Shown piece by piece: positions 13,601 to 22,735 of a stretch of 22,735 nt of DNA. The stretch lies in the IMG/VR virus record IMGVR_UViG_3300021378_000176, positions 1 to 22,735 of that record; one strand, written 5' to 3'. Position 1 is the stretch's first letter. Every line of letters begins with the position of its first letter. This DNA is from a virus. The notes below the pieces were generated by a model. The model worked only from the letters and a program-made list of their open reading frames with translations. It ran no database searches and was not told the origin of the DNA. A program made the position numbers and the translations under genes.

Positions 13601-14902
13601 CTTATTTCACCTATACCCGCTTATCAATTTAATGATCACATCGCAAACTGGGCTGGAAATAGTGGTAAAGATGCTGTTCCTGCAGTTGCAACTGGAGAAA
13701 CGTTGTTGAATATAGTAAATGATAGAATTATTGAAACTACAACAGCAAATTTTATGAGATCAAGAAAAGTTTATTTTAGAGCTGAAGGTTTAAGACCTAA
13801 TACACGAGTATTTACTTTCTTAGACGGAGTCAATATTACAAGCTTAACAAACGGTGGCGGCGGTCCTACTTTGTTCCAACATTATTCAGACACAGATTCT
13901 GATTTTGGTAATACACTAAGTGATGTAACAATACACCCATCAGGATCTTCAACACTCGTTACAGATGCAAATGGAACAGTTTCTGGATCATTTATAGTGC
14001 CAAACAATGATACAACTAGAATACGAACTGGAACTAGAGAATTTAAAGTGTTAGATATAAGTGTAGACAAAGAGACTGATGCTGCAGCAATGGCTTCAAC
14101 TAACTACACTTCGCAAGGGTTTTTAGACACTAAACAAGCTACATATGAGTCTACTCGAGTCATAGTGCAAACTGGAGGTTTAATATCATATAACGAGGGT
14201 GGAGACCATAAATCACCAGTCACTGATGATTGGGGTGTTAACTTAGCTACAGCCGTAGTGAGTTTAGGCTTAATTGATCAACAATTTAGCAATTATGCTG
14301 ATGCAAATGGATATGGGCTAAACTATACCGATCCAGCACCAAAATCTGGGTACCTGTCACACTCAAATGCAATCAATGCAATCAATAACGCCATTGCATC
14401 TAAAGTAGGTGTGCACTTAGGTATACCTACCTATACTAATAATAATCAAGACGATGGTCCTGGCGGCGGCATGAATGGTGATGAACACGGTTATACTGAT
14501 GATAACGGTTATGGTGTGGCATGTCTATTAGAAGATATGTTAGTAATGTTGAATGGTGTGTTATCGACAGTGGTAAATGTTAAAGTAGGAGATATTGTTT
14601 CTGGAAGCTTAGTGACAGAGGTTATGCAAAAACACATGAGAAATGCTTATTACATAATTAATAATGAATTAAAAATAACTAATGATCACCCTGTTTTAAC
14701 TAACTTAGGTTGGAAGAGAACAGAAGAGGTTGAAATTGGTAACTATATAAATGGCGTAAAAGTAGAAACCATAGATTTTATTGAAAAAATTATTCCTACA
14801 GTTTATATAGGAACAACTAATGAAAGCTTTGATGTGTATTGTAACAATAACATTTACACAGTTCATGGCCAATATAAACAATTATTAAAAAAGGCGAGTT
14901 AA
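10688..14902 (+). CDS. Large virion structural protein, DUF4815-type, with C-terminal Hint domain (1404 aa)
   Basis: The start has AGGA at 10677-10680. The N-terminus (TTFTETSLATTYKDDFRDSDNYHRILFNTGVGLQARELTQLQTILQSQIERFG) is the signature of the DUF4815 family of large tail/baseplate-peripheral proteins in marine T4-like phages. At about residues 810-840 a short coiled coil (MKDIGKLENRVERLEETTTLNLLETDT) is also typical. After about residue 1190 come a fibre-like segment, then a Gly/Asp/Asn-rich linker (GGGMNGDEHGYTDDNGYG). A 126-residue Hint domain begins at Cys1279 and is annotated separately. The family usually continues into a domain containing P-[IL]-A-Q-[ST]-F; here that domain is encoded by the next gene, so the protein seems to be split at the Hint domain. 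The exact virion location is unknown; neighbours suggest the outer baseplate or fibre base. Confidence 0.85.
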   Translation: MATTFTETSLATTYKDDFRDSDNYHRILFNTGVGLQARELTQLQTILQSQIERFGNNVFKEGAVVKPGGVNVNPQYEFIKLDTTDPSHVLPTDITTLVGKTVTGQTSSIVATILEVVAAVGSDPATLYVKYTNTSSAQGSTDVVTQRMSGNEVMDVSDGTDLKVKLSTIADPSTGKGTQVTALGGIYYVRGNFVLTQDQSKIISKYTDIPDTDIGFKTVEDVVTASDNNALYDNQGSVPNVSAPGADRYRITLTIAERSEMTSSDNFVHVATIKKGQIYSAVATTNSYNIPNELIAKRIEENSGDYIVKPFSARFDLDSQNTHLLLNVSDGVAVVRGFRSIVTKPSTFRITKPAVTTTVNNEPVGATHGAYVFVDVAHSGLGKTKGIPNFNQLEEMNLRSAVTHGGSTIGTARVKAITKSGTNLKMHLIDINLNSGEVFRDVKSIGTSTSNFFNITLENSKGVLKEPYEKYNFFSLPNPRPTALSDLTYTAQRRFPTLSANGSGVVTLTGLTTAGEIYTQTGDFVFAKADSDVSAATPSYSLTPSASAPTGGTANFGTAADVATISSSSNIELAAFVSKTQTTPKTKTLTNMTLTNTVESDGAGFKFVNMKRADIYEVDEIVNASDSNESYATRFIVDNGQRPSHYDVGRLILRSGQSAPSGSVSMKYKFFDPTGGGDYFSVNSYAGQVDYDKIPNYNLGGGQLINLRDVIDFRSVSDSAGNFNTSGATMLETPQDGSTITADVTYNLATPAKLVIDKNSKLDFVFGAPGFNPILPVTPDGSLPLYDIIMNPGVLNDSDVSLSKYNFKRFTMKDIGKLENRVERLEETTTLNLLETDTKYLQVLDSSGNDRTKSGFFVDAFKDHRGAEMSVPYEYRASTDFTNRVVRPMTRHDQIRLTYDSASSTNTIKRGDNVYIKYDQSEYINQTTASKAVKVNPFSVTIYEGTITLSPSSDEWRDVERVPDKIIQGGTLISPIPAYQFNDHIANWAGNSGKDAVPAVATGETLLNIVNDRIIETTTANFMRSRKVYFRAEGLRPNTRVFTFLDGVNITSLTNGGGGPTLFQHYSDTDSDFGNTLSDVTIHPSGSSTLVTDANGTVSGSFIVPNNDTTRIRTGTREFKVLDISVDKETDAAAMASTNYTSQGFLDTKQATYESTRVIVQTGGLISYNEGGDHKSPVTDDWGVNLATAVVSLGLIDQQFSNYADANGYGLNYTDPAPKSGYLSHSNAINAINNAIASKVGVHLGIPTYTNNNQDDGPGGGMNGDEHGYTDDNGYGVACLLEDMLVMLNGVLSTVVNVKVGDIVSGSLVTEVMQKHMRNAYYIINNELKITNDHPVLTNLGWKRTEEVEIGNYINGVKVETIDFIEKIIPTVYIGTTNESFDVYCNNNIYTVHGQYKQLLKKAS
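14522..14899 (+). other. Hint (intein/hedgehog-type autoprocessing) domain, residues 1279-1404 of the DUF4815 protein
   Basis: The domain begins CLLEDMLVMLNGVLSTVVNV-KVGDIV, matching the Hint pattern of a nucleophilic Cys followed by D-x-x-V and K-V-G-D. Block-B-like T-x-x-H is present as ITNDHPVLTNLGWKRTEEVEIGNYI (Thr1331, His1334). The last block is SFDVYCNNNIYTVHGQYKQLL. By hand alignment the terminal His-Asn of true inteins is absent, and only a few residues follow. There is no endonuclease domain. Known Hint domains with Cys1 and T-x-x-H perform an N-to-S acyl shift, giving cleavage or ester transfer at the upstream bond (Ala1278-Cys1279). Activity here is inferred, and full splicing is unlikely. 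Confidence 0.75.
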
Positions 14903-14905
14903 AAT

Positions 14906-16489
14906 ATGTCAGTAACATCAACCGGATATAGAGTTGGAAAGCAACCAATAGCTCAATCGTTTTACATCGATGATCCTGCAGGAATTTATTGCACTAAAGT
15001 AGATTTATTTTTTAAAGCAGCTGATGAAAACGCTCCGATACAAGTACAAATTAGGCCTATGGTTAATGGGTTTCCTTCATCGAACACTATAATCCCAGGA
15101 ACTATAAAATCATTACCGGGTAGTACGTTTTCAGGTGGAGCAAGTATATCTGCAGATGCTACTACAGCAACTACATTTGAATTTGATGAGCCTACGTATT
15201 TGAAAGGATTAAATGAATATGCATTAGTAGTCATAGCAGATTCAAAAGATTATGAAATTTATATAGCTGAAATTAATGATTTTGTAGTAGGTTCTACAGA
15301 GAAGCGTGTAAATAAACAACCTGTATTAGGAAGTTTATTCTATTCACAAAATGGCTCAACATTCACTCCTTCACAAAATCAAGATTTAACTTTTAAAATA
15401 TATCAAGCAAAATTTAAACATTCAACTGCGACTATAGCATTACATAATGCGCCAGTTCCTAAGCAACTACTTAATCCAAATCCTTTAAAAACTATTTCAA
15501 CATCGCAAACAGTAAGAGTGACTCATGCTAATCATGGTATGCAAGTTGGTCAACCTATAACTTTATCTGGTGTTGATTCTGCAGGTGTAGGCGGAATATC
15601 TGCTTCAACATTAAATCAGCGTCATACTATTACAGCAATTGATCACACTGGTTATACTTTCACATCAGATTCTGCTGCAGATTCAGATGCTTTCGGTGGA
15701 GGAACTATTATTCAATCTACTAAAAATATATTGTATAATAACATATATCCATCAATAGCTGCGTTAATACCTGCAGGCCAGCAATTTAATGCTAGTGTTA
15801 AAACTACTACCGGAAAATCTTACGCAGGAATTGAGACAGCATTTCAAAAACAATCATCATTTGAATCTGTGCAAATTAATGAAAACAATACTAAAAGTAC
15901 TTTAATGATGATAGCTCATGACAGTGCTGAAACAAGTGATATTGGTGCTGGAATAAAGTCTCTAGATTTTAATATTTCAATAGTAAATGCTGATTCTAAT
16001 ATGGCACCTATGTTAGATTTACAAAGAACTTCTGTAGGACTAATAAGTAATATAATTGACAAACAAAATGAAACTATATTAGATAATCACAATGTTCCAT
16101 TAGCATATGTAGACGAAACTTCAGCGAGAGGTGGAAGCAGTGCAGCTAAACATTTAACTAAGACAATAGTTTTAAATGAAGAAGCTGTAGGATTAAAAGT
16201 ATTGTTGTCTGCTAACAGACCATCGACTGCTGATTTTCAAGTTTATTTTAGAACAGCTGATGCCGATACTTCTATAGTGACACAAAATTTTATCTTAGCA
16301 TCTCAAGAAACAGTTATTCCAACTGATGAAAACCCTAGCATTTTTAGAGAATACACGTATCTTATAGGAGGCCAAGGCGGAGATATAGCAGCATTTACTA
16401 AATTTCAATTAAAAATAGTATTTAGAAGTACTAACCAAGCACTTGTTCCATCAATATCTTCATTACGCGCTATAGCATTGAGCGCGTAA
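14906..16489 (+). CDS. Virion structural protein, apparent C-terminal half of the DUF4815-type tail protein (527 aa)
   Basis: It begins only three bases after the previous stop, with an AAGGCGAG purine run about 11 bases upstream. Residues about 10-170 form a domain I know from large marine myovirus tail proteins: GKQPIAQSFYIDD, TKVDLFFKAAD, VQIRPMVNGFPSS, TTFEFDEPTYLKGLNEYALVVIADSKDY and VNKQPVLGSLFYSQNGSTFTPSQNQDLTFKIYQAKF. In relatives this domain is, to my recollection, in the same polypeptide as DUF4815 and contains the motif DPLAQ[ST]F. The rest is beta-rich with no clear family. It presumably assembles with the 1404-residue protein at the baseplate periphery. The last codons, with unusually GC-rich CGC GCT and AGC GCG, form one arm and part of the other arm of a 13-bp hairpin. 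Confidence 0.75.
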   Translation: MSVTSTGYRVGKQPIAQSFYIDDPAGIYCTKVDLFFKAADENAPIQVQIRPMVNGFPSSNTIIPGTIKSLPGSTFSGGASISADATTATTFEFDEPTYLKGLNEYALVVIADSKDYEIYIAEINDFVVGSTEKRVNKQPVLGSLFYSQNGSTFTPSQNQDLTFKIYQAKFKHSTATIALHNAPVPKQLLNPNPLKTISTSQTVRVTHANHGMQVGQPITLSGVDSAGVGGISASTLNQRHTITAIDHTGYTFTSDSAADSDAFGGGTIIQSTKNILYNNIYPSIAALIPAGQQFNASVKTTTGKSYAGIETAFQKQSSFESVQINENNTKSTLMMIAHDSAETSDIGAGIKSLDFNISIVNADSNMAPMLDLQRTSVGLISNIIDKQNETILDNHNVPLAYVDETSARGGSSAAKHLTKTIVLNEEAVGLKVLLSANRPSTADFQVYFRTADADTSIVTQNFILASQETVIPTDENPSIFREYTYLIGGQGGDIAAFTKFQLKIVFRSTNQALVPSISSLRAIALSA

Positions 16490-16493: not shown

Positions 16494-16704
16494 ATATTTA
16501 AAAGTTGAAGGAAACGGCAACTTAGTAAGAGATACATCTACAGGAGCTATTTTGAATATAAATAAAGATGAGATCAGTGCGGCAAGAAAAAGAAAGCTTG
16601 AAAGAAGACAAAAAGAAAAAGATTTTGAAGATTTAAAAAACGATGTTACTGAAATGAAATCTATGTTACAGAAATTAATAGAGGGAAAAGATGGCAGTCA
16701 CTGA
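16489..16704 (+). CDS. Small coiled-coil structural-region protein (71 aa)
   Basis: The start overlaps the previous stop (TAATG) and lies inside a strong hairpin. The N-terminal 30 residues (VEGNGNLVRDTSTGAILNINKDE) resemble the conserved start of a small protein found among tail genes of marine T4-like phages. The rest is a highly charged helix (ARKRKLERRQKEKDFEDLKNDVTEMKSMLQKLIEG), likely coiled coil. Function is unknown; the family is usually a virion-associated or assembly protein by position. The gene overlaps the next start by 14 bases. Confidence 0.75.
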   Translation: MKYLKVEGNGNLVRDTSTGAILNINKDEISAARKRKLERRQKEKDFEDLKNDVTEMKSMLQKLIEGKDGSH

Positions 16705-17296
16705 AATATTATTATCAGATCCGGTAACTACTCTAGTTACTAAGACAAATACAATAGCTAGCAACCTAGGTGATGTAGCTACACTGAGTACCACTGCAAC
16801 AAATTTAGTCGCAGCAATAAATGAGATCAATATTCAAGATAAAGTTGATTCGGCTGATGTTATAAGTTTAATTCAAGCTAACGCTATGGACTCAGCTGAA
16901 GTGCTTGCTTTAATCAGAGCAGATTCTGGTGAAACAAGCATTATGTCTAACTTTCAAAAAGACAGTGCAAATGGAATTGGCTTTGATTCGAGTGAAGGCA
17001 GATTCTTTATACCTTCAAATACTATTAATTCATCAATGCTTGAACCACTTTCAGTTACTTTAGCTAAAGTTGCTGCAGATGCAATAGATGGAACAAAACT
17101 TGCTGATAATGCTGTAAATTCAGAACATTATACTGATGGATCAATTGACACTATTCATATTGGAGACTTACAAGTAACAACGGCAAAGATTGCAGATGAC
17201 GCTGTAGGTTCAGTTCAATTAAAAACACTATCAACGTTATTAATAAAAAATTCAGCAGGAAGCACACTAAAAACGATACACGGCGCAGGGGCCTAA
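16691..17296 (+). CDS. Fibre-like virion protein with short A-D-x-A-x-x repeats (201 aa)
   Basis: GAGGG at 16681-16685 precedes the ATG at 16691. Residues about 45-80 contain two VDSADVISLIQAN / MDSAEVLALIRAD units. Residues about 130-185 contain repeats of the form D-A-[IV]-x-G-x-[KQ]-L (DAIDGTKLADNAV, GSIDTIHIGDLQV, TTAKIADDAVGSVQL), the pattern seen in trimeric tail-fibre shafts. The C-terminus is LKTIHGAGA. It is probably a small fibre or fibre-connector protein. No enzymatic motif is seen. Confidence 0.65.
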   Translation: MAVTEILLSDPVTTLVTKTNTIASNLGDVATLSTTATNLVAAINEINIQDKVDSADVISLIQANAMDSAEVLALIRADSGETSIMSNFQKDSANGIGFDSSEGRFFIPSNTINSSMLEPLSVTLAKVAADAIDGTKLADNAVNSEHYTDGSIDTIHIGDLQVTTAKIADDAVGSVQLKTLSTLLIKNSAGSTLKTIHGAGA

Positions 17297-17300
17297 TATC

Positions 17301-18224
17301 ATGGCGGTTGTAAGTCCTTTATATTGGGATGGAAGCAGTCTTCAAGAAATGTCTTCGGCACAGCTGTTAGACTTACAACAGCGAGCCGTTTATGTTTATG
17401 GATCTAATCCTTCTGCTCTACTTACAGTTGTTGGAAGTTCTGGAAGTTTGGACAGTATGTCAGATACCAGAATGCAAGCTGGTGCATCCACAACAGATGT
17501 TACTAATTTTGATACGGCCGGCGAGACTCCTAATGTTTCTCAAGTAACTCCAATAGTTTATGATAAGATAAATCAAGCTAATTCAAGCGTAAGCACTCCT
17601 ACAGACACTAATAATAAATTCTATCCTGTGTACTACGACGGCACAGATATAAGAGCCATGAGCGCTACTGATGTGTTTGATACTATTATAAATGCTGCTA
17701 TAGGTACGCTAGTTGATGGAAATGACAGAGGTGGTACGTTTAGAATACATACTGCAACTTCTTTATCTCTTAACACTTTAATATCTTCAACCCCCGTTTT
17801 TACTGACACAATAGCAAATGTATCGGCTTATACTGCAGGCGGAATTGGTGAAACACAAGATCAACCTACGACAATAACTAACTACTATTTATTTCGAACT
17901 AATCAAACTGTTGCTACAAGTTTTCAATCACCTCTGCAAATAACGAGTGGTAATGATTTACAAATATATACTGATGCTAATCTTGATGCAATGTTATTAG
18001 CTGAAATGAGACATCATACAGTAAACACTGCAGGTTCTAGAATTACTTATTCTATAAATGGAAGCGGAGCTAATAGAGGGACTGGTATGGTAGATACACG
18101 TCTTGACGGAGCAGGAAATTATCAAACAAGGTTTGTGAATGCCAATGATTATCGTACTCAAGAATTTCCTAATGGTACAGCACAAACTGTAAGTACATAC
18201 TTTTTAAAAATTGCAAGGAGTTAA
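17301..18224 (+). CDS. Virion structural protein of the marine T4-like phage type (307 aa)
   Basis: The start is four bases after the previous stop, with a purine-rich AGGGG upstream. The protein contains two related units: SPLYWDGSSLQEMSSAQLLDL at residues about 5-25, and YPVYYDGTDIRAMSATDVFDT at about 107-127. This suggests an internal duplication. The C-terminal third (TDANLDAMLLAEMRH ... RFVNANDYRTQEFPNGTAQTVSTYFLKI) is a conserved-looking end. I recognise the family as an uncharacterised structural protein of marine myoviruses, probably fibre-associated; there is no T4 counterpart I can name. Confidence 0.6.
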   Translation: MAVVSPLYWDGSSLQEMSSAQLLDLQQRAVYVYGSNPSALLTVVGSSGSLDSMSDTRMQAGASTTDVTNFDTAGETPNVSQVTPIVYDKINQANSSVSTPTDTNNKFYPVYYDGTDIRAMSATDVFDTIINAAIGTLVDGNDRGGTFRIHTATSLSLNTLISSTPVFTDTIANVSAYTAGGIGETQDQPTTITNYYLFRTNQTVATSFQSPLQITSGNDLQIYTDANLDAMLLAEMRHHTVNTAGSRITYSINGSGANRGTGMVDTRLDGAGNYQTRFVNANDYRTQEFPNGTAQTVSTYFLKIARS

Positions 18225-18226
18225 TT

Positions 18227-18706
18227 ATGGCAATCCCTGGACATGAATTTGTAAGAGCACATTTTTCAAATAACGAAAGAACAATAGTTGAATCGTTTTG
18301 GACTGATGGGAAAGTAGAAAGAGTTGAATACATTGAAGCTAAAGAAGGTGATCCTAATTTTGAAAATCTATTAACTCATATTGATATTGATAACTTGCAC
18401 GAAGCAACGTACAAACATATTAGAGAACAGCATGAAGCATTTGAAGATACTGTTATCACACTGGCAAAAGATAGAGGATTAATATACGATTTTAATGAGC
18501 AACACACTGATGTTCATAAAGCTTTAGCTCAATTTTTATTTAATGAGTTTGACGCAGAAAGAGATAAAGAAAAACTATTTCTTTACAAACTGCAATTATT
18601 CGAGACACCTGCTATTAAAAAATCTACAAAGGCAAGTAAGAAAAAAGAATTGAGACAAGCAAAGACTATTAAAGAAGCCACATTAATCGCGTTGTCTATG
18701 AGTTAA
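18227..18706 (+). CDS. Conserved phage protein of unknown function (159 aa)
   Basis: A strong ribosome binding site (AAGGAG) precedes the ATG at 18227. The sequence is mixed alpha/beta in the first half (FVRAHFSNNERTIVESFWTDGKVERVEYIEAKEGDP). It becomes helical and charged later, with a Lys-rich tail (KKSTKASKKKELRQAK). Similar small proteins follow fibre genes in marine T4-like phages, but no role is known. It is the last rightward gene of the unit, and its final 24 bases overlap the end of the leftward radical SAM gene. Confidence 0.6.
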   Translation: MAIPGHEFVRAHFSNNERTIVESFWTDGKVERVEYIEAKEGDPNFENLLTHIDIDNLHEATYKHIREQHEAFEDTVITLAKDRGLIYDFNEQHTDVHKALAQFLFNEFDAERDKEKLFLYKLQLFETPAIKKSTKASKKKELRQAKTIKEATLIALSMS

Positions 18707-19828
18707 TCTAAACTGGCCTTCTTTATACTTATTTGAACAGCTGTAAACACAGTTTCTTATTGGATTCTCAGATTGTATTACGTAAGGTAACTCTTTCCAC
18801 CAATCATTTTTTAGTATATCTTCTAATTTATTTTCATAAATATTGTTATTATAATCGTAATACTTTCGAGCAAAAGGGTGTTGCTTCATCCAGCTTTTCT
18901 TGTTCATAACAGAAAAGTTTCCAAAAAAACAACACGGCCAGACGTTTCCATCAAAATTAATATTTAACGTATTAGTTAACGACCAGCCACAAGTTGGTTT
19001 ATTATCTAAATCTGCTATTGTAGTTCTGTTTATTTGAGCTCCACGTTTTTTAAATTCATCTGTCCAATCTTCAGTCACTTTATTTAAACTTAGTTTTGTG
19101 TTGTTCTCATCGTAAAAAGTGTATACGTTACGATTTTCAACTTGTGGATCGTCTTCACCAAACCTATCACTTATAACTGACGAATGTTTTTCAGCTCCGT
19201 GTTCTTTACATAACTTAGTAATTTCTTCTAAGTAGTCTTGATTGTGCTTAAATAATACGGTCTGAGTTTCAACTAGAACTGTTTCTTTAAACTCGGAACA
19301 TATCTTTACGTGGTCTAACACTTTTTGTAGATTAGTATTTCTTCTATAAAGACCGTGCATATCTTGATCGATACCATCTACTGCAAAAACAATGTGTAGT
19401 CTTTTACTATGATATCGTGATTTATGTTTTATCGCCAAAGAACAAAGTTTCCACCAATATAATTCATCTCTCATGCTTCCATTAGTGTTTATAGTAACTA
19501 TTATACGCCAACTAGAACTTAAGAAATGTTCCACAATCTCAGCAGCGTGAGGATGCATCATGTGATCTCCCCATGTAGGACAAAGTTGTATAGAATGATA
19601 TTTTAATAGTTCTTGTTGAGTAAACGTCTTTTTTATTTTTTCAAAAGGCACGTGTATCAATGGAAGTTCTTTTATTACATTCCCAGTAAAAGATAACTTT
19701 GCGCCTTCAGTAGAGTTTATTCTATGACATTGAGGACATTTTGCGTTACAATACGTCGTTGTGTCTAAAACTATATTATAATATGGTCTCCAACTTTTAA
19801 ATTTACTTGAGTCTAGAGATTGTTTCAT
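18683..19828 (-). CDS. Radical SAM enzyme with SPASM/twitch-like C-terminus (381 aa)
   Basis: The radical SAM cluster motif CX3CX2C is at Cys27, Cys31 and Cys34 (CNAKCPQC), following the TTTYCN strand. The C-terminal region has Cys280, then G294-x4-Cys299 with Cys300 (FDGNVWPCC), then Cys360 and Cys364. This is an abbreviated SPASM/twitch pattern able to hold an auxiliary iron-sulfur cluster. Such enzymes generate a 5'-deoxyadenosyl radical and often modify peptides or proteins, though some act on sugars or nucleotides. The substrate here is unknown. The ATG at 19828 has AAGGA five bases upstream on the minus strand. It overlaps the upstream glycosyltransferase by 26 bases and is the distal gene of the leftward operon. 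No precursor-peptide gene is visible nearby. Confidence 0.85.
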   Translation of the reverse strand: MKQSLDSSKFKSWRPYYNIVLDTTTYCNAKCPQCHRINSTEGAKLSFTGNVIKELPLIHVPFEKIKKTFTQQELLKYHSIQLCPTWGDHMMHPHAAEIVEHFLSSSWRIIVTINTNGSMRDELYWWKLCSLAIKHKSRYHSKRLHIVFAVDGIDQDMHGLYRRNTNLQKVLDHVKICSEFKETVLVETQTVLFKHNQDYLEEITKLCKEHGAEKHSSVISDRFGEDDPQVENRNVYTFYDENNTKLSLNKVTEDWTDEFKKRGAQINRTTIADLDNKPTCGWSLTNTLNINFDGNVWPCCFFGNFSVMNKKSWMKQHPFARKYYDYNNNIYENKLEDILKNDWWKELPYVIQSENPIRNCVYSCSNKYKEGQFRLTHRQRD

Positions 19829-20600
19829 GAAAATCCTTATTTACTTGGTGTATTAAATGTACGCCAGACGTTACTTTAGTTACGATATCGTCTAAAATAT
19901 AATTCCATTGTATTCCTATATTATTAAAATCTATGTTGTATCTTTCTAAAAGATAAGAAAGATAAACTTCATTATTTTTTATCCACGCTTTTGACATTAA
20001 CTCTGGATATAAATTATCGTTAATAGCAATACTTAATTTTTTATTCATATCATTCATTCTTTCTGTAAAAGATAGTTCTTCTGCAGATTTTTTATTTGCG
20101 CATACTACACCAGTGTTGACAATATTTTCATTTCCAATTATATCGTCTATCATCAACATGGCGTTCTTAGCACAAACTTTAGAATACATCATCATAGGAG
20201 AAATACATTTTTTATCTTTAGTAGTTTCTGATATGTGCTTTATGGTTTCCCTATTATTTATTTTTACAGTATAATCGTACACGCCAATTTTATTAAAGTT
20301 AAAACTTTTAAATATATTTTTTTTAGTAATAGGAACTATATCCATGTCAAAATATACTACGTTGTCATAGTACTTAGTAAGTTCTTCAAGCTTAAATATC
20401 TTATCGAACTGAACGTTCGTGTAATCTGTTGACTTAGGCGTAAATACTTCATAATCAGCTTTACAAAAGTATGCATAATTCTTTTGCAATTCAATTAACT
20501 TTTCTTTGTATTTTTTAATTGATTCTTTTTTATAATCATTTACAGATGAATGTTGTTCTGTTAAATCTGACCATATACTATAAATGATATTTTTTGGCAT
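19803..20600 (-). CDS. GT-A-type glycosyltransferase, second tandem copy (265 aa)
   Basis: I place the start at the ATG at 20600 (MPKNIIYSIWSDL), 23 bases inside the previous gene, because the upstream in-frame residues look like out-of-frame coding sequence of that gene. A nucleotide-sugar-binding fold is suggested by the DxD motif at residues 85-87 (YFDMDIVPI), then NTGVVCANKK and the closing VHLIHQVNKDF. These features match GT8/GT32-like transferases acting on sugar nucleotides with a divalent metal. It parallels the neighbouring gene throughout (IDFDVVPL, YNTGIVLANK, VHAINKNF), so the two are diverged tandem duplicates. The acceptor is unknown. Confidence 0.75.
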   Translation of the reverse strand: MPKNIIYSIWSDLTEQHSSVNDYKKESIKKYKEKLIELQKNYAYFCKADYEVFTPKSTDYTNVQFDKIFKLEELTKYYDNVVYFDMDIVPITKKNIFKSFNFNKIGVYDYTVKINNRETIKHISETTKDKKCISPMMMYSKVCAKNAMLMIDDIIGNENIVNTGVVCANKKSAEELSFTERMNDMNKKLSIAINDNLYPELMSKAWIKNNEVYLSYLLERYNIDFNNIGIQWNYILDDIVTKVTSGVHLIHQVNKDFHETISRLK

Positions 20601-21477
20601 ATGCTTTAATAAATTTAAAATTCTTGTTAATTGCGTGCACGAATTTAGTTTCTTTAGGTATATAATTAATTTTTTTTCTGTAAGGAAAATGCCAAACATC
20701 ATCTAGTTCTATTAAGTTGACATTATTAATTTTCATCTTAAAGCTAAATAATGTTTCGTTATCGTATCCAAAACAATTTTGTATAAACTTAGGCCAAAAT
20801 CCTTCTTCATTTTTTATTCTGTGCATAAATTCTAAGGTGTCATTAAAATTTTTAAAATAATTTAATTTTTTTAAATTATCTTTATTCGCTAAAACAATTC
20901 CAGTATTATATACATCATTGTTACCACTTAGTCCTTCTTCCATTAGTAAAGCTCTACAGTTCCAATATTTAGCTTTAGGATCTCGTTCAGAAAAAGTTCT
21001 ACCAGTTTTTAAAAAAGCTTTCTCTCTTTCTTTAATAATCTTAGGACTTAAGAAAGTCAAATAACTTTCTGGATTTCTTTCATGATTAACTTTGCAAGCA
21101 ATACCATTTGCAACGTCTATGTTGTCAAAAATATTATCTTGAGTTAATGGCACTACATCAAAATCAATGTACAGTATTTCATCATAAGTTTTGCATAAAT
21201 CATACATGATATGTATTTTATAAAAATTAATTATATTGTACTTAGAGATAAAAGGATAATTATCTTCAAAGTGTTTTCTGTAAGCTCTCCACTTCTCGTC
21301 GTCTTCATATAATATATAGGTTATACCTAATTTACGAGCGTAGTTCTCTTGTTTATGTTTTAAAAAATTATAATTGTTTTTAAATTCATTTTTATTTTTA
21401 ATATTTTTTTGATAATCATGATCTTCCTCAAAGTCATCATTATTAAAATCTATGTAAATGCTAAATATAACTCTCAT
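20578..21477 (-). CDS. GT-A-type glycosyltransferase, first tandem copy (299 aa)
   Basis: The ATG at 21477 overlaps the methyltransferase stop as ATGA. After an N-terminal strand (RVIFSIYID) come a helix-rich region and the metal-binding DxD motif at residues 105-107 (YIDFDVVPLTQDNIF). These are followed by YNTGIVLANKDNL and a C-terminal FVHAINKNFKFI. Its composition is strongly Asn/Lys/Ile-rich, more AT-biased than the tail genes. It likely transfers a sugar from a nucleotide donor to a virion protein, a phage or host glycan, or DNA; the sequence does not say which. It is the paralogue of the downstream gene. Confidence 0.78.
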   Translation of the reverse strand: MRVIFSIYIDFNNDDFEEDHDYQKNIKNKNEFKNNYNFLKHKQENYARKLGITYILYEDDEKWRAYRKHFEDNYPFISKYNIINFYKIHIMYDLCKTYDEILYIDFDVVPLTQDNIFDNIDVANGIACKVNHERNPESYLTFLSPKIIKEREKAFLKTGRTFSERDPKAKYWNCRALLMEEGLSGNNDVYNTGIVLANKDNLKKLNYFKNFNDTLEFMHRIKNEEGFWPKFIQNCFGYDNETLFSFKMKINNVNLIELDDVWHFPYRKKINYIPKETKFVHAINKNFKFIKAYAKKYHL

Positions 21478-22118
21478 TTGCCGATTATCATAAATCTATC
21501 GTATTCATCTTTGTGTCTCTTTGTTCCAGAATATAATACGTTTTTTAAAGAAATGCTTTTTATAAAATCTTCTAAATTATCTTTACAGTTAATATGGCTA
21601 TCAACTTCATAATAATTATTAGATTGTAAACAAACTATCATGTTTGGATGTTTTTGTTGTAAAACAAAAGATAGTTCTTCATCGTCTATGTGTTCGCACG
21701 CTGTGCACACGAGTATTCTATCATAATAATTATGATTTAAAAAGTCTTCTAAACCATCTATTGTTTTAAAATGAATATTATCGTGCATCCTTAATTTTCG
21801 CGCAATCTTATTACAAACTTCATCTAATTCTATGTTAAGTATTTTATTTTTAAATCCAGATTCAGCGAACAAATGTGAGAACAAACCATACCAGCTTCCT
21901 ATTACCACGCATTCTTTGTATTCACTGTCAATTAACTTATTTAATTCTTCTACTGCCCACACTTTATTCATAATTTGACCCTCACTAAAAGAATCGAGTA
22001 CATCTTTAAGTCTAAATAAATCGCCTCCAAAAGATTCTTTATCGTAAGTTGTCGTAGTATAGATGTCAGTTATAATATTAAGTATCTTTCGATACATCGA
22101 TGGTGTTATATATTCCAT
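21474..22118 (-). CDS. Class I SAM-dependent methyltransferase-like protein (214 aa)
   Basis: A Rossmann methyltransferase motif I is seen as CVVIGSWYGLFSHLF (about residues 70-84 from this start), followed by an acidic second strand ILNIELDE. A later motif (YYDRILVCTACEHIDDEELSFVL) matches the strand-IV region of class I methyltransferases. I chose the ATG at 22118, with GGAG about 10 bases upstream. A TTG at 22166 and ATGs at 22148 and 22097 are alternatives; all overlap the previous gene. The stop overlaps the next start as ATGA. Together with the glycosyltransferases it could methylate a sugar, but no specificity can be read. Confidence 0.7.
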   Translation of the reverse strand: MEYITPSMYRKILNIITDIYTTTTYDKESFGGDLFRLKDVLDSFSEGQIMNKVWAVEELNKLIDSEYKECVVIGSWYGLFSHLFAESGFKNKILNIELDEVCNKIARKLRMHDNIHFKTIDGLEDFLNHNYYDRILVCTACEHIDDEELSFVLQQKHPNMIVCLQSNNYYEVDSHINCKDNLEDFIKSISLKNVLYSGTKRHKDEYDRFMIIGK

Positions 22119-22629
22119 TGTCAAAGTTTCTCCACTGTATCTTTTCATGCCAAAAAAATCTGTCAATTCCTTTATATTTTCGTGTATGGTAATCTATGTT
22201 TTTACTAAAGATATTCCAAATATAAGAATTTTGTTTAGACGTCCAAGCAAGAACTGAGCTATTTAATTCTGTATCATATGCATGCTCGCTAAAGAACTTA
22301 TCTTTTTTCCAACCGTCTCTCATGAATGTAGGGTAGTTCCAGTCAATATTGTTTATATATGGGAATGGATCGGAAAGTATTTTGATATCTAGATCAAATA
22401 ATACGCACTTACCTTCTATTTCAAAGTCTTCTCTAAATAAATGCATTTTATTCCACCACCTCATAAGTTTAGGTTTCTTTGGAATGTCAATGCAATCTAT
22501 AATTACATTTGTTTTATCTTCAGTGAAACAATAAAAATTTGCAGAAGTATAATCTTTTAGAGAATGATAAATTTCATTTACATCATCAGCACTATATTTA
22601 GTACCGTGTTTTAATAATATAATATTCAT
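22078..22629 (-). CDS. Small glycosyltransferase-like protein, first gene of the leftward operon (183 aa)
   Basis: The start is taken at the ATG at 22629, where MNIILLKHGTKYSADDVNEIYHSL forms a typical first strand and helix. Upstream in-frame residues overlap the promoters and the opposite leader and are unlikely to be coding. The pattern NFYCFTEDK, KLMRWWNKMHLF, CVLFDLDIKIL (DxD at residues 79-81), SSVLAW and IDRFFWHEK is that of a phage glycosyltransferase family with a GT-A fold. No ribosome binding site precedes this ATG. A late promoter octamer ends six bases before it, suggesting a leaderless message. Confidence 0.72.
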   Translation of the reverse strand: MNIILLKHGTKYSADDVNEIYHSLKDYTSANFYCFTEDKTNVIIDCIDIPKKPKLMRWWNKMHLFREDFEIEGKCVLFDLDIKILSDPFPYINNIDWNYPTFMRDGWKKDKFFSEHAYDTELNSSVLAWTSKQNSYIWNIFSKNIDYHTRKYKGIDRFFWHEKIQWRNFDNGIYNTIDVSKDT

Positions 22630-22634
22630 AAATT

Positions 22635-22642
22635 TATTTATA
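22635..22642 (-). promoter_or_regulatory. Leftward T4-type late promoter of the sugar/radical SAM cassette
   Basis: TATAAATA reads on the minus strand from 22642 to 22635, the only such octamer I found in that orientation. The late start point, about 5-7 bases downstream, would coincide with the ATG at 22629. This would make the cassette a late transcript with little or no leader. Confidence 0.6.
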
Positions 22643-22663: not shown

Positions 22664-22671
22664 TATAAATA
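22664..22671 (+). promoter_or_regulatory. Rightward T4-type late promoter before the next structural gene
   Basis: GTATAAATAG occurs here as at the two other rightward late promoters. It lies 21 bases from, and back to back with, the leftward octamer. Expected transcription from about 22677 gives a roughly 49-base leader before the ATG at 22726. Confidence 0.75.
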
Positions 22672-22725: not shown

Positions 22726-22735
22726 ATGGCCACAT
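22726..22735 (+). CDS. Start of a rightward late gene, cut by the window edge
   Basis: GGAG at 22716-22719 lies six bases before the ATG at 22726, the same spacing style as other genes here, and a late promoter lies upstream. Only the first codons (Met-Ala-Thr) are visible, so no product can be named. An alternative ATG at 22679 opens a different frame to the window end but lacks a ribosome binding site. Confidence 0.5.

Follow-up and report, generated by a model that had tools for sequence, protein, structure and literature searches.

Described viral glycan systems and the cassette locus

In pelagimyophages, a hypervariable "host recognition cluster" (HRC) hosts fibre genes, GT8 glycosyltransferases (GTs) and radical S-adenosylmethionine (SAM) cassettes, as described by Zaragoza-Solas et al. 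(2020, PMC7029224). From the chlorovirus PBCV-1, the protein A064R is known, combining two GTs with a sugar methyltransferase and adding two rhamnoses and a methyl group to the capsid glycan (PMC9614988). Cyanophage P-SSM2 carries 24 lipopolysaccharide (LPS) genes in two clusters, for which a role in changing the host surface was proposed (PMC2984593). Here, we compared with these systems a locus of the virus record IMGVR_UViG_3300021378_000176, whose full 22,735 bases (the window) come from the baseplate/tail region of a marine T4-like phage. Five leftward open reading frames (ORFs) at 18683-22629, referred to as the cassette, encode three GTs (GTa, GTb, GTc), a methyltransferase (MT) and a radical SAM enzyme (rSAM). 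The most likely product of this late five-enzyme set is a decorated sugar chain, attached either to the virus particle or to the surface of the dying host, and a role in late, phage-dedicated glycan modification is well supported.

An earlier evaluation of the same DNA from its letters, the sequence-only reading, had been unable to match the cassette to a described phage system. This no longer holds. The pelagimyophage HRC is the locus of the window: both have a T4-like backbone and, in the region after VrlC, fibre genes together with GT8 and radical SAM cassettes. In the window, the VrlC-like gene is followed by a 71-aa gene, fib1, fib2, c18227 and the cassette, GT8 matches are found in relatives of GTb, and rSAM matches Radical_SAM and SPASM. 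The region and its gene classes are already known from that source. The module of the window differs by recurring with a GTa+MT core, by fusions, by its constant linkage to fib2/c18227 and by a leaderless late promoter; none of these features, nor a fold link to a virion-glycan enzyme, was found in the accessible part of PMC7029224.

A homologous convergent operon is also present in Pelagibacter phage Mosig EXVC030M (MT647606.1, 60990-71305), hosting homologs of fib2, c18227, GTb and MT and a GTa-like gene in the same convergent arrangement, with a late octamer 13 nt ahead of the first ATG as in the window. It differs in being much larger, with a DegT aminotransferase, a carbamoyltransferase, nitroreductase-like genes and several radical SAM genes, and its fib2 (72526-73446; c18227 at 71292-71801) is only 47% identical. 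A nucleotide-sugar epimerase lies between fib2 and c18227 of Mosig, and the same locus of relatives repeatedly hosts DegT and epimerase genes as well as additional radical SAM families.

A064R resembles the cassette in being virus-encoded and soluble, in comprising two GTs and a sugar methyltransferase, and in a GT-A domain that is the top fold match of GTb. In contrast, the identity is only ~15%, A064R is a single polypeptide from an algal virus lacking a radical SAM function, and its acceptor is known. Two GTs and a methyltransferase within one polypeptide are not found in the window, which has separate genes, whereas GTa-MT and double GT8 fusions exist in some relatives. As the GT genes of PBCV-1 are expressed early (PMC9614988), the parallel is one of chemistry and not of timing. 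P-SSM2 is likewise a T4-like marine phage with glycan genes; it differs by its 24 genes in two clusters, and the window has no sugar-nucleotide biosynthesis genes.

Enzymes, conservation and late promoter of the cassette

The organization as one leftward operon among rightward structural genes, proposed from the sequence-only reading, is confirmed by the ORFs, their overlaps and the flank of the longer, near-identical contig L002. Neighbouring genes overlap by 47 nt (41 nt with the ATG start of MT), 4, 23 and 26 nt, and the 3' end of rSAM shares 24 nt with the convergent c18227. On one side, the cassette is flanked by the rightward baseplate/fibre genes VrlC, fib1, fib2 and c18227, on the other by a gene for a giant tail fibre; since rightward genes resume in L002, it represents an antisense insert. 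No membrane-like hydrophobic segment was found in any of the five proteins. Their motifs are intact, with DxD in all three GTs, the SAM motif, and CxxxCxxC plus auxiliary cysteines invariant in the alignments. With a G+C content of 0.284, the cassette is AT-richer than the stretch of the window ahead of it (0.341).

Structure prediction covered GTb and MT, while GTa and GTc were assigned from sequence (DxD present). The model of GTb (predicted local distance difference test, pLDDT, 91.7) adopts a GT-A fold with an invariant DxD and reaches Z scores of 12.6-16.2 to GT-A enzymes. Its top match is domain 1 of PBCV-1 A064R (Z 16.2, 3.3 A over 188 residues), followed at Z <=13.8 by xyloglucan xylosyltransferase, LARGE1, glycogenin and UGGT. 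GTc is a paralog of GTb (hhalign E 3e-40). Pfam matches to GT8 were obtained for three of the eleven GTb alignment members (best 1.8e-6) and also for GTc relatives. GTb and GTc of the window themselves have no Pfam match, staying below the gathering score of GT8 (Glyco_transf_8), and are thus named GT8-like only. A PDB sequence search with GTa, GTb and GTc profiles gave no match. The model of MT (pLDDT 87.7) compares with class I methyltransferases at Z ~15.

For rSAM, Pfam matches to Radical_SAM (1.7e-6; 28.7 bits, just under the cut-off of 29.5) and SPASM (3.5e-5; 24.4 bits, cut-off 21.5) are accompanied by the cysteines C27, C31 and C34 (CxxxCxxC), C280-x13-G-x4-C299 and C360-x3-C364, invariant in ten aligned sequences. 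Judged from known twitch/SPASM motifs, the four auxiliary cysteines would fit a twitch-type single extra cluster. Matches to SPASM maturases of NCBIfam were weak and far below their cut-offs; the only match of the rSAM profile in the PDB, cytosylglucuronate decarboxylase (E 0.002), was likewise weak and not used as an assignment. Because the DegT, epimerase and extra radical SAM families of relatives are sugar-modifying, rSAM is read as a probable sugar-modifying enzyme as well. In many relatives, rSAM is split into two overlapping ORFs, a core and a small ATG-started ORF beginning a few codons before the first auxiliary-cluster cysteine (e.g., L053 2382-3357, L055 10152-11127, L014 7911-9081, L022 3913-4931, L070 12210-13249, and others). 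The varying overlaps (4 to 52 nt) suggest two coupled subunits and not a programmed frameshift.

The search for the same gene set in other marine phages was successful: all five genes occur in the same order and place in the window, L002, L003, L004/L005, L007, L008 and L009, and unrelated single insertions, the pattern named beforehand as contradicting the sequence-only reading, were not seen, the genes travelling as a set. An rSAM-seeded search yielded 28 viral loci. A former count of 82 out of 82 loci was dropped as partly circular, some loci having been retrieved with cassette genes. It was replaced by a sample seeded with fib2 alone in order to avoid circularity, consisting of 45 distinct loci that have a downstream stretch of 4.5 kb or more. 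Within this sample, c18227 and GTa are present in every locus (45 each) and MT in all but one (44), with lower counts for GTb (37), rSAM (26) and GTc (23). In ~40% of relatives, rSAM of the window family is absent within 8 kb. The GT/MT genes are convergent in 24 loci, co-directional in 14 and mixed in seven. A GTb-seeded sample of 51 distinct loci hosts c18227 nearby in 47 and fib2 as well in 44, while the remaining four loci end within 2.1 kb. Furthermore, GTa and MT are fused in ten ORFs and two GT8-like domains in L193-L195 (L194 was aligned in detail). These fusions indicate one pathway. The previous assumption of a multi-step modification is supported.

The GTb family looks phage-specific. 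A scan of 84,980 cellular genomes revealed five loci only, four of which carry c18227 (three of these also fib2), while the fifth, L193, has GTa and MT beside the fused GTb. All five look like phage contigs binned into genomes. Contigs of metagenome-assembled genomes labelled Flavobacteriaceae, Rhodobiaceae and Rhodobacteraceae (L191, L192, L194, L195) carry the phage locus and are probably mis-binned phage DNA. Mosig is the only one of 50,697 phage records to be matched by fib2, and the same applies to GTb and to MT. Pelagibacter phage HTVC008M was negative for fib2 and the GTs; four 2OG-Fe(II)/phytanoyl-CoA dioxygenase genes form part of a leftward cluster in its corresponding region (L196, 15403-18682), which may be a different kind of modification cassette.

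Late expression had been predicted from the T4-type octamer TATAAATA ahead of GTa, and its position in several relatives substantiates this promoter. The exact octamer is also found 13 nt before the GTa ATG in L003, L004/L005, L007 and L114, despite differing intergenic sequence, and at the same distance upstream of the GTb ATG in L166 and, as mentioned, of the first gene of the convergent operon in Mosig. Six of its eight letters are kept at this position in L009, L119, L120 and L133. Across the 1,202 genes of the loci, eight exact octamers lie at distance 13 and none at 9-12 or 14-16, some of the eight being orthologous and hence not all independent. As the octamer count in the window is at chance level (6 versus 4.9 expected), only the position was given weight. 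The exact octamer is absent upstream of most other convergent operons, so that the promoter evidence is good for the window clade only. Transcription of T4 late genes starts a few bases past the octamer; consequently, the cassette mRNA is predicted to begin at or next to the ATG, i.e., to be leaderless. Independent support for late co-transcription is provided by the 14 of 45 relatives with all GT/MT genes co-directional with fib2, several of them beginning within a few bases of fib2 or c18227. From promoter position and this co-direction with structural genes we infer the late timing of the cassette. Octamers exactly 13 nt before the ATG were also recognized at unrelated genes (L108 7988, L127 2299, L172 3034, L185 1104, L014 2346 and Mosig L189 2978), which suggests that these phages make late mRNAs of a leaderless class.

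The proposed acceptor and rival explanations

In the proposed pathway, three soluble GTs would build a short chain from host nucleotide sugars, MT would cap or tailor this chain, and the rSAM/twitch enzyme would probably alter a sugar by oxidation, deoxygenation or epimerisation. The acceptor would most likely be a fibre protein produced from this late region, either fib2 or the giant fibre, and its glycan would change receptor binding, stability or recognition, comparable to the capsid glycosylation of PBCV-1 by soluble virus-encoded enzymes. A fibre acceptor gains in likelihood because the cassette is paired with fibre genes, its GT family is phage-only, functions for membrane or export are absent, and the fold resembles that of A064R; it is from this context that we infer the acceptor. 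We give about an even chance to the cassette being a late glycan assembly and decoration module dedicated to the fibre/host-recognition locus, with a fibre protein as its most likely acceptor. A literature search found no direct precedent for phage fibre glycosylation, most subscription papers being outside its reach.

Several points weigh against this assignment. GT8 enzymes frequently belong to LPS pathways, and sharing a GT-A fold says nothing about the acceptor. A mere hot spot for cargo genes would equally place the cassette next to fibre genes, and the relatives sampled are the closest ones. In two shorter fib2-seeded loci (L040, L046), fib2-c18227 is directly followed by gp13-like neck genes without a cassette. 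A fib2 near-identical to that of L046 (L044) shares its contig with the cassette-bearing L041, ~15 kb away by contig coordinates; fib2-c18227 can thus occur twice, flanking the host-recognition region, and the cassette may be carried by one copy only. Finally, the HRC authors favour host O-chain modification for the GT8 genes (PMC7029224).

This published view leads to the strongest rival, in which the late enzymes alter LPS or surface glycans of the infected cell, thereby excluding competing phages or preventing progeny from sticking to the lysing cell and its debris. It parallels the proposal for the LPS genes of P-SSM2 (PMC2984593) and is in accordance with sugar-activating enzymes in the cassettes of relatives and with the LPS galactosyltransferase LgtC being also among the GTb fold matches. 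However, a polymerase, flippase or membrane protein is absent from the five genes, the GTb family looks phage-specific and is tied to fib2/c18227 instead of being shared with host LPS loci, and enzymes made late would contribute less to an early exclusion of superinfecting phages. We thus regard surface modification of the host as possible, short of an even chance.

Clearly improbable is a process resembling the maturation of ribosomally synthesized and post-translationally modified peptides (RiPPs), with rSAM as a peptide maturase and the GTs and MT tailoring a small protein (e.g., c18227 or fib2) by cross-links and glycosylation. Besides the maturase matches of rSAM mentioned above, the constant adjacency of c18227 would fit this idea, as would a Nif11 match in one c18227 relative. 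Yet this match is C-terminal, confined to one of twelve members and below the cut-off, so that c18227 as a Nif11/RiPP precursor was rejected and the match treated as chance; moreover, c18227 has no variable core, a substantial fraction of relatives manages without rSAM of the window family, and radical SAM genes of relatives are accompanied by sugar-nucleotide enzymes. DNA base hypermodification or glucosylation, in whose favour it can be said that phage GTs in general can modify DNA, is very improbable in view of the late promoter, the linkage to fibre and not replication genes, and the GT-A, GT8-like fold (of the GTb model only) as opposed to the GT-B fold of the T4 DNA glucosyltransferases BGT and AGT, so that the former preference for fibre or cell surface over DNA stands.

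Extending the fibre reading to a whole group is more tentative: a widespread family of SAR11-type T4-like phages may use a phage-only GTa-MT-GT8 module on late leaderless transcripts to glycosylate its own fibre (fib2 or giant fibre), the glycan being methylated and tailored by the radical SAM enzyme. SAR11 phages are very abundant in the ocean, and their glycan genes are usually read as modifiers of host LPS. With a fibre-locked late module, decoration by the phage of its own receptor-binding apparatus would become testable in a cultured phage (Mosig on HTCC1062).

Genomic setting and feature coordinates

The rightward genes of the window comprise a gp6-like baseplate wedge gene, gp8-like, gp9/10-like and VrlC-like genes, a 71-aa virion protein, fib1, fib2 and c18227. 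Among named phages, its nearest relatives are Phage C48C1, Methylophilales phage Melnitz and the Pelagibacter phages HTVC008M and Mosig, with identities of 30-42%; only the kinship with Mosig points to SAR11 as a possible host. C48C1 was discarded as a reference for an empty site, since the genes it has there show no detectable homology to fib2 or c18227 (hhalign probability <1%). No Pfam match was obtained for fib2. To the right of the cassette, a rightward gene starts at 22727, and in L002 an ORF of 117 aa is followed by one for a tail fibre that spans 1579 aa or more. The contig of the window stops at 22735, inside the host-recognition region, which in pelagimyophages extends to the neck gene gp14.

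Table 1. Features of the cassette locus with positions in the window.
Feature	Position	Strand	Basis or remark
VrlC-like gene	14906-16489	+	phrog_358/877; tblastn to VrlC of Mosig and HTVC008M
fib1, tail-fibre-like protein	16691-17296	+	phrog_892 tail fiber protein, 1e-10
fib2, conserved putative fibre-type virion protein, candidate target	17301-18224	+	virion role suggested by position
c18227, conserved convergent gene adjoining the cassette	18227-18706	+	in 45/45 fib2-seeded and 47/51 GTb-seeded relatives
rSAM, radical SAM + SPASM/twitch enzyme	18683-19828	-	Pfam matches and cysteine motifs
GTc, GTb paralog, DxD D85/D87	19803-20600	-	start placed by relatives; longest ORF reaches 20702
GTb, GT8-like glycosyltransferase, DxD D105/D107	20578-21477	-	fold model and GT8 matches of relatives
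MT, class I SAM-dependent methyltransferase	21474-22124	-	TTG start 22124 (aligns with ATG of relatives) or ATG 22118
GTa, GT-A type glycosyltransferase, conserved DxD (D79, D81)	22078-22629	-	phrog_1962 glycosyltransferase, 1.3e-6
T4-type late octamer TATAAATA	22635-22642	-	-13 to -6 of GTa ATG
Second late octamer, for the divergent gene starting at 22727	22664-22671	+	octamer scan of the window

Upstream of the VrlC-like gene, the C-terminus of a 1404-aa tail protein (14516-14899) resembles Hint/intein domains, with matches to Intein_splicing (E 0.0018) and Vint (0.033) that are both below the cut-off.

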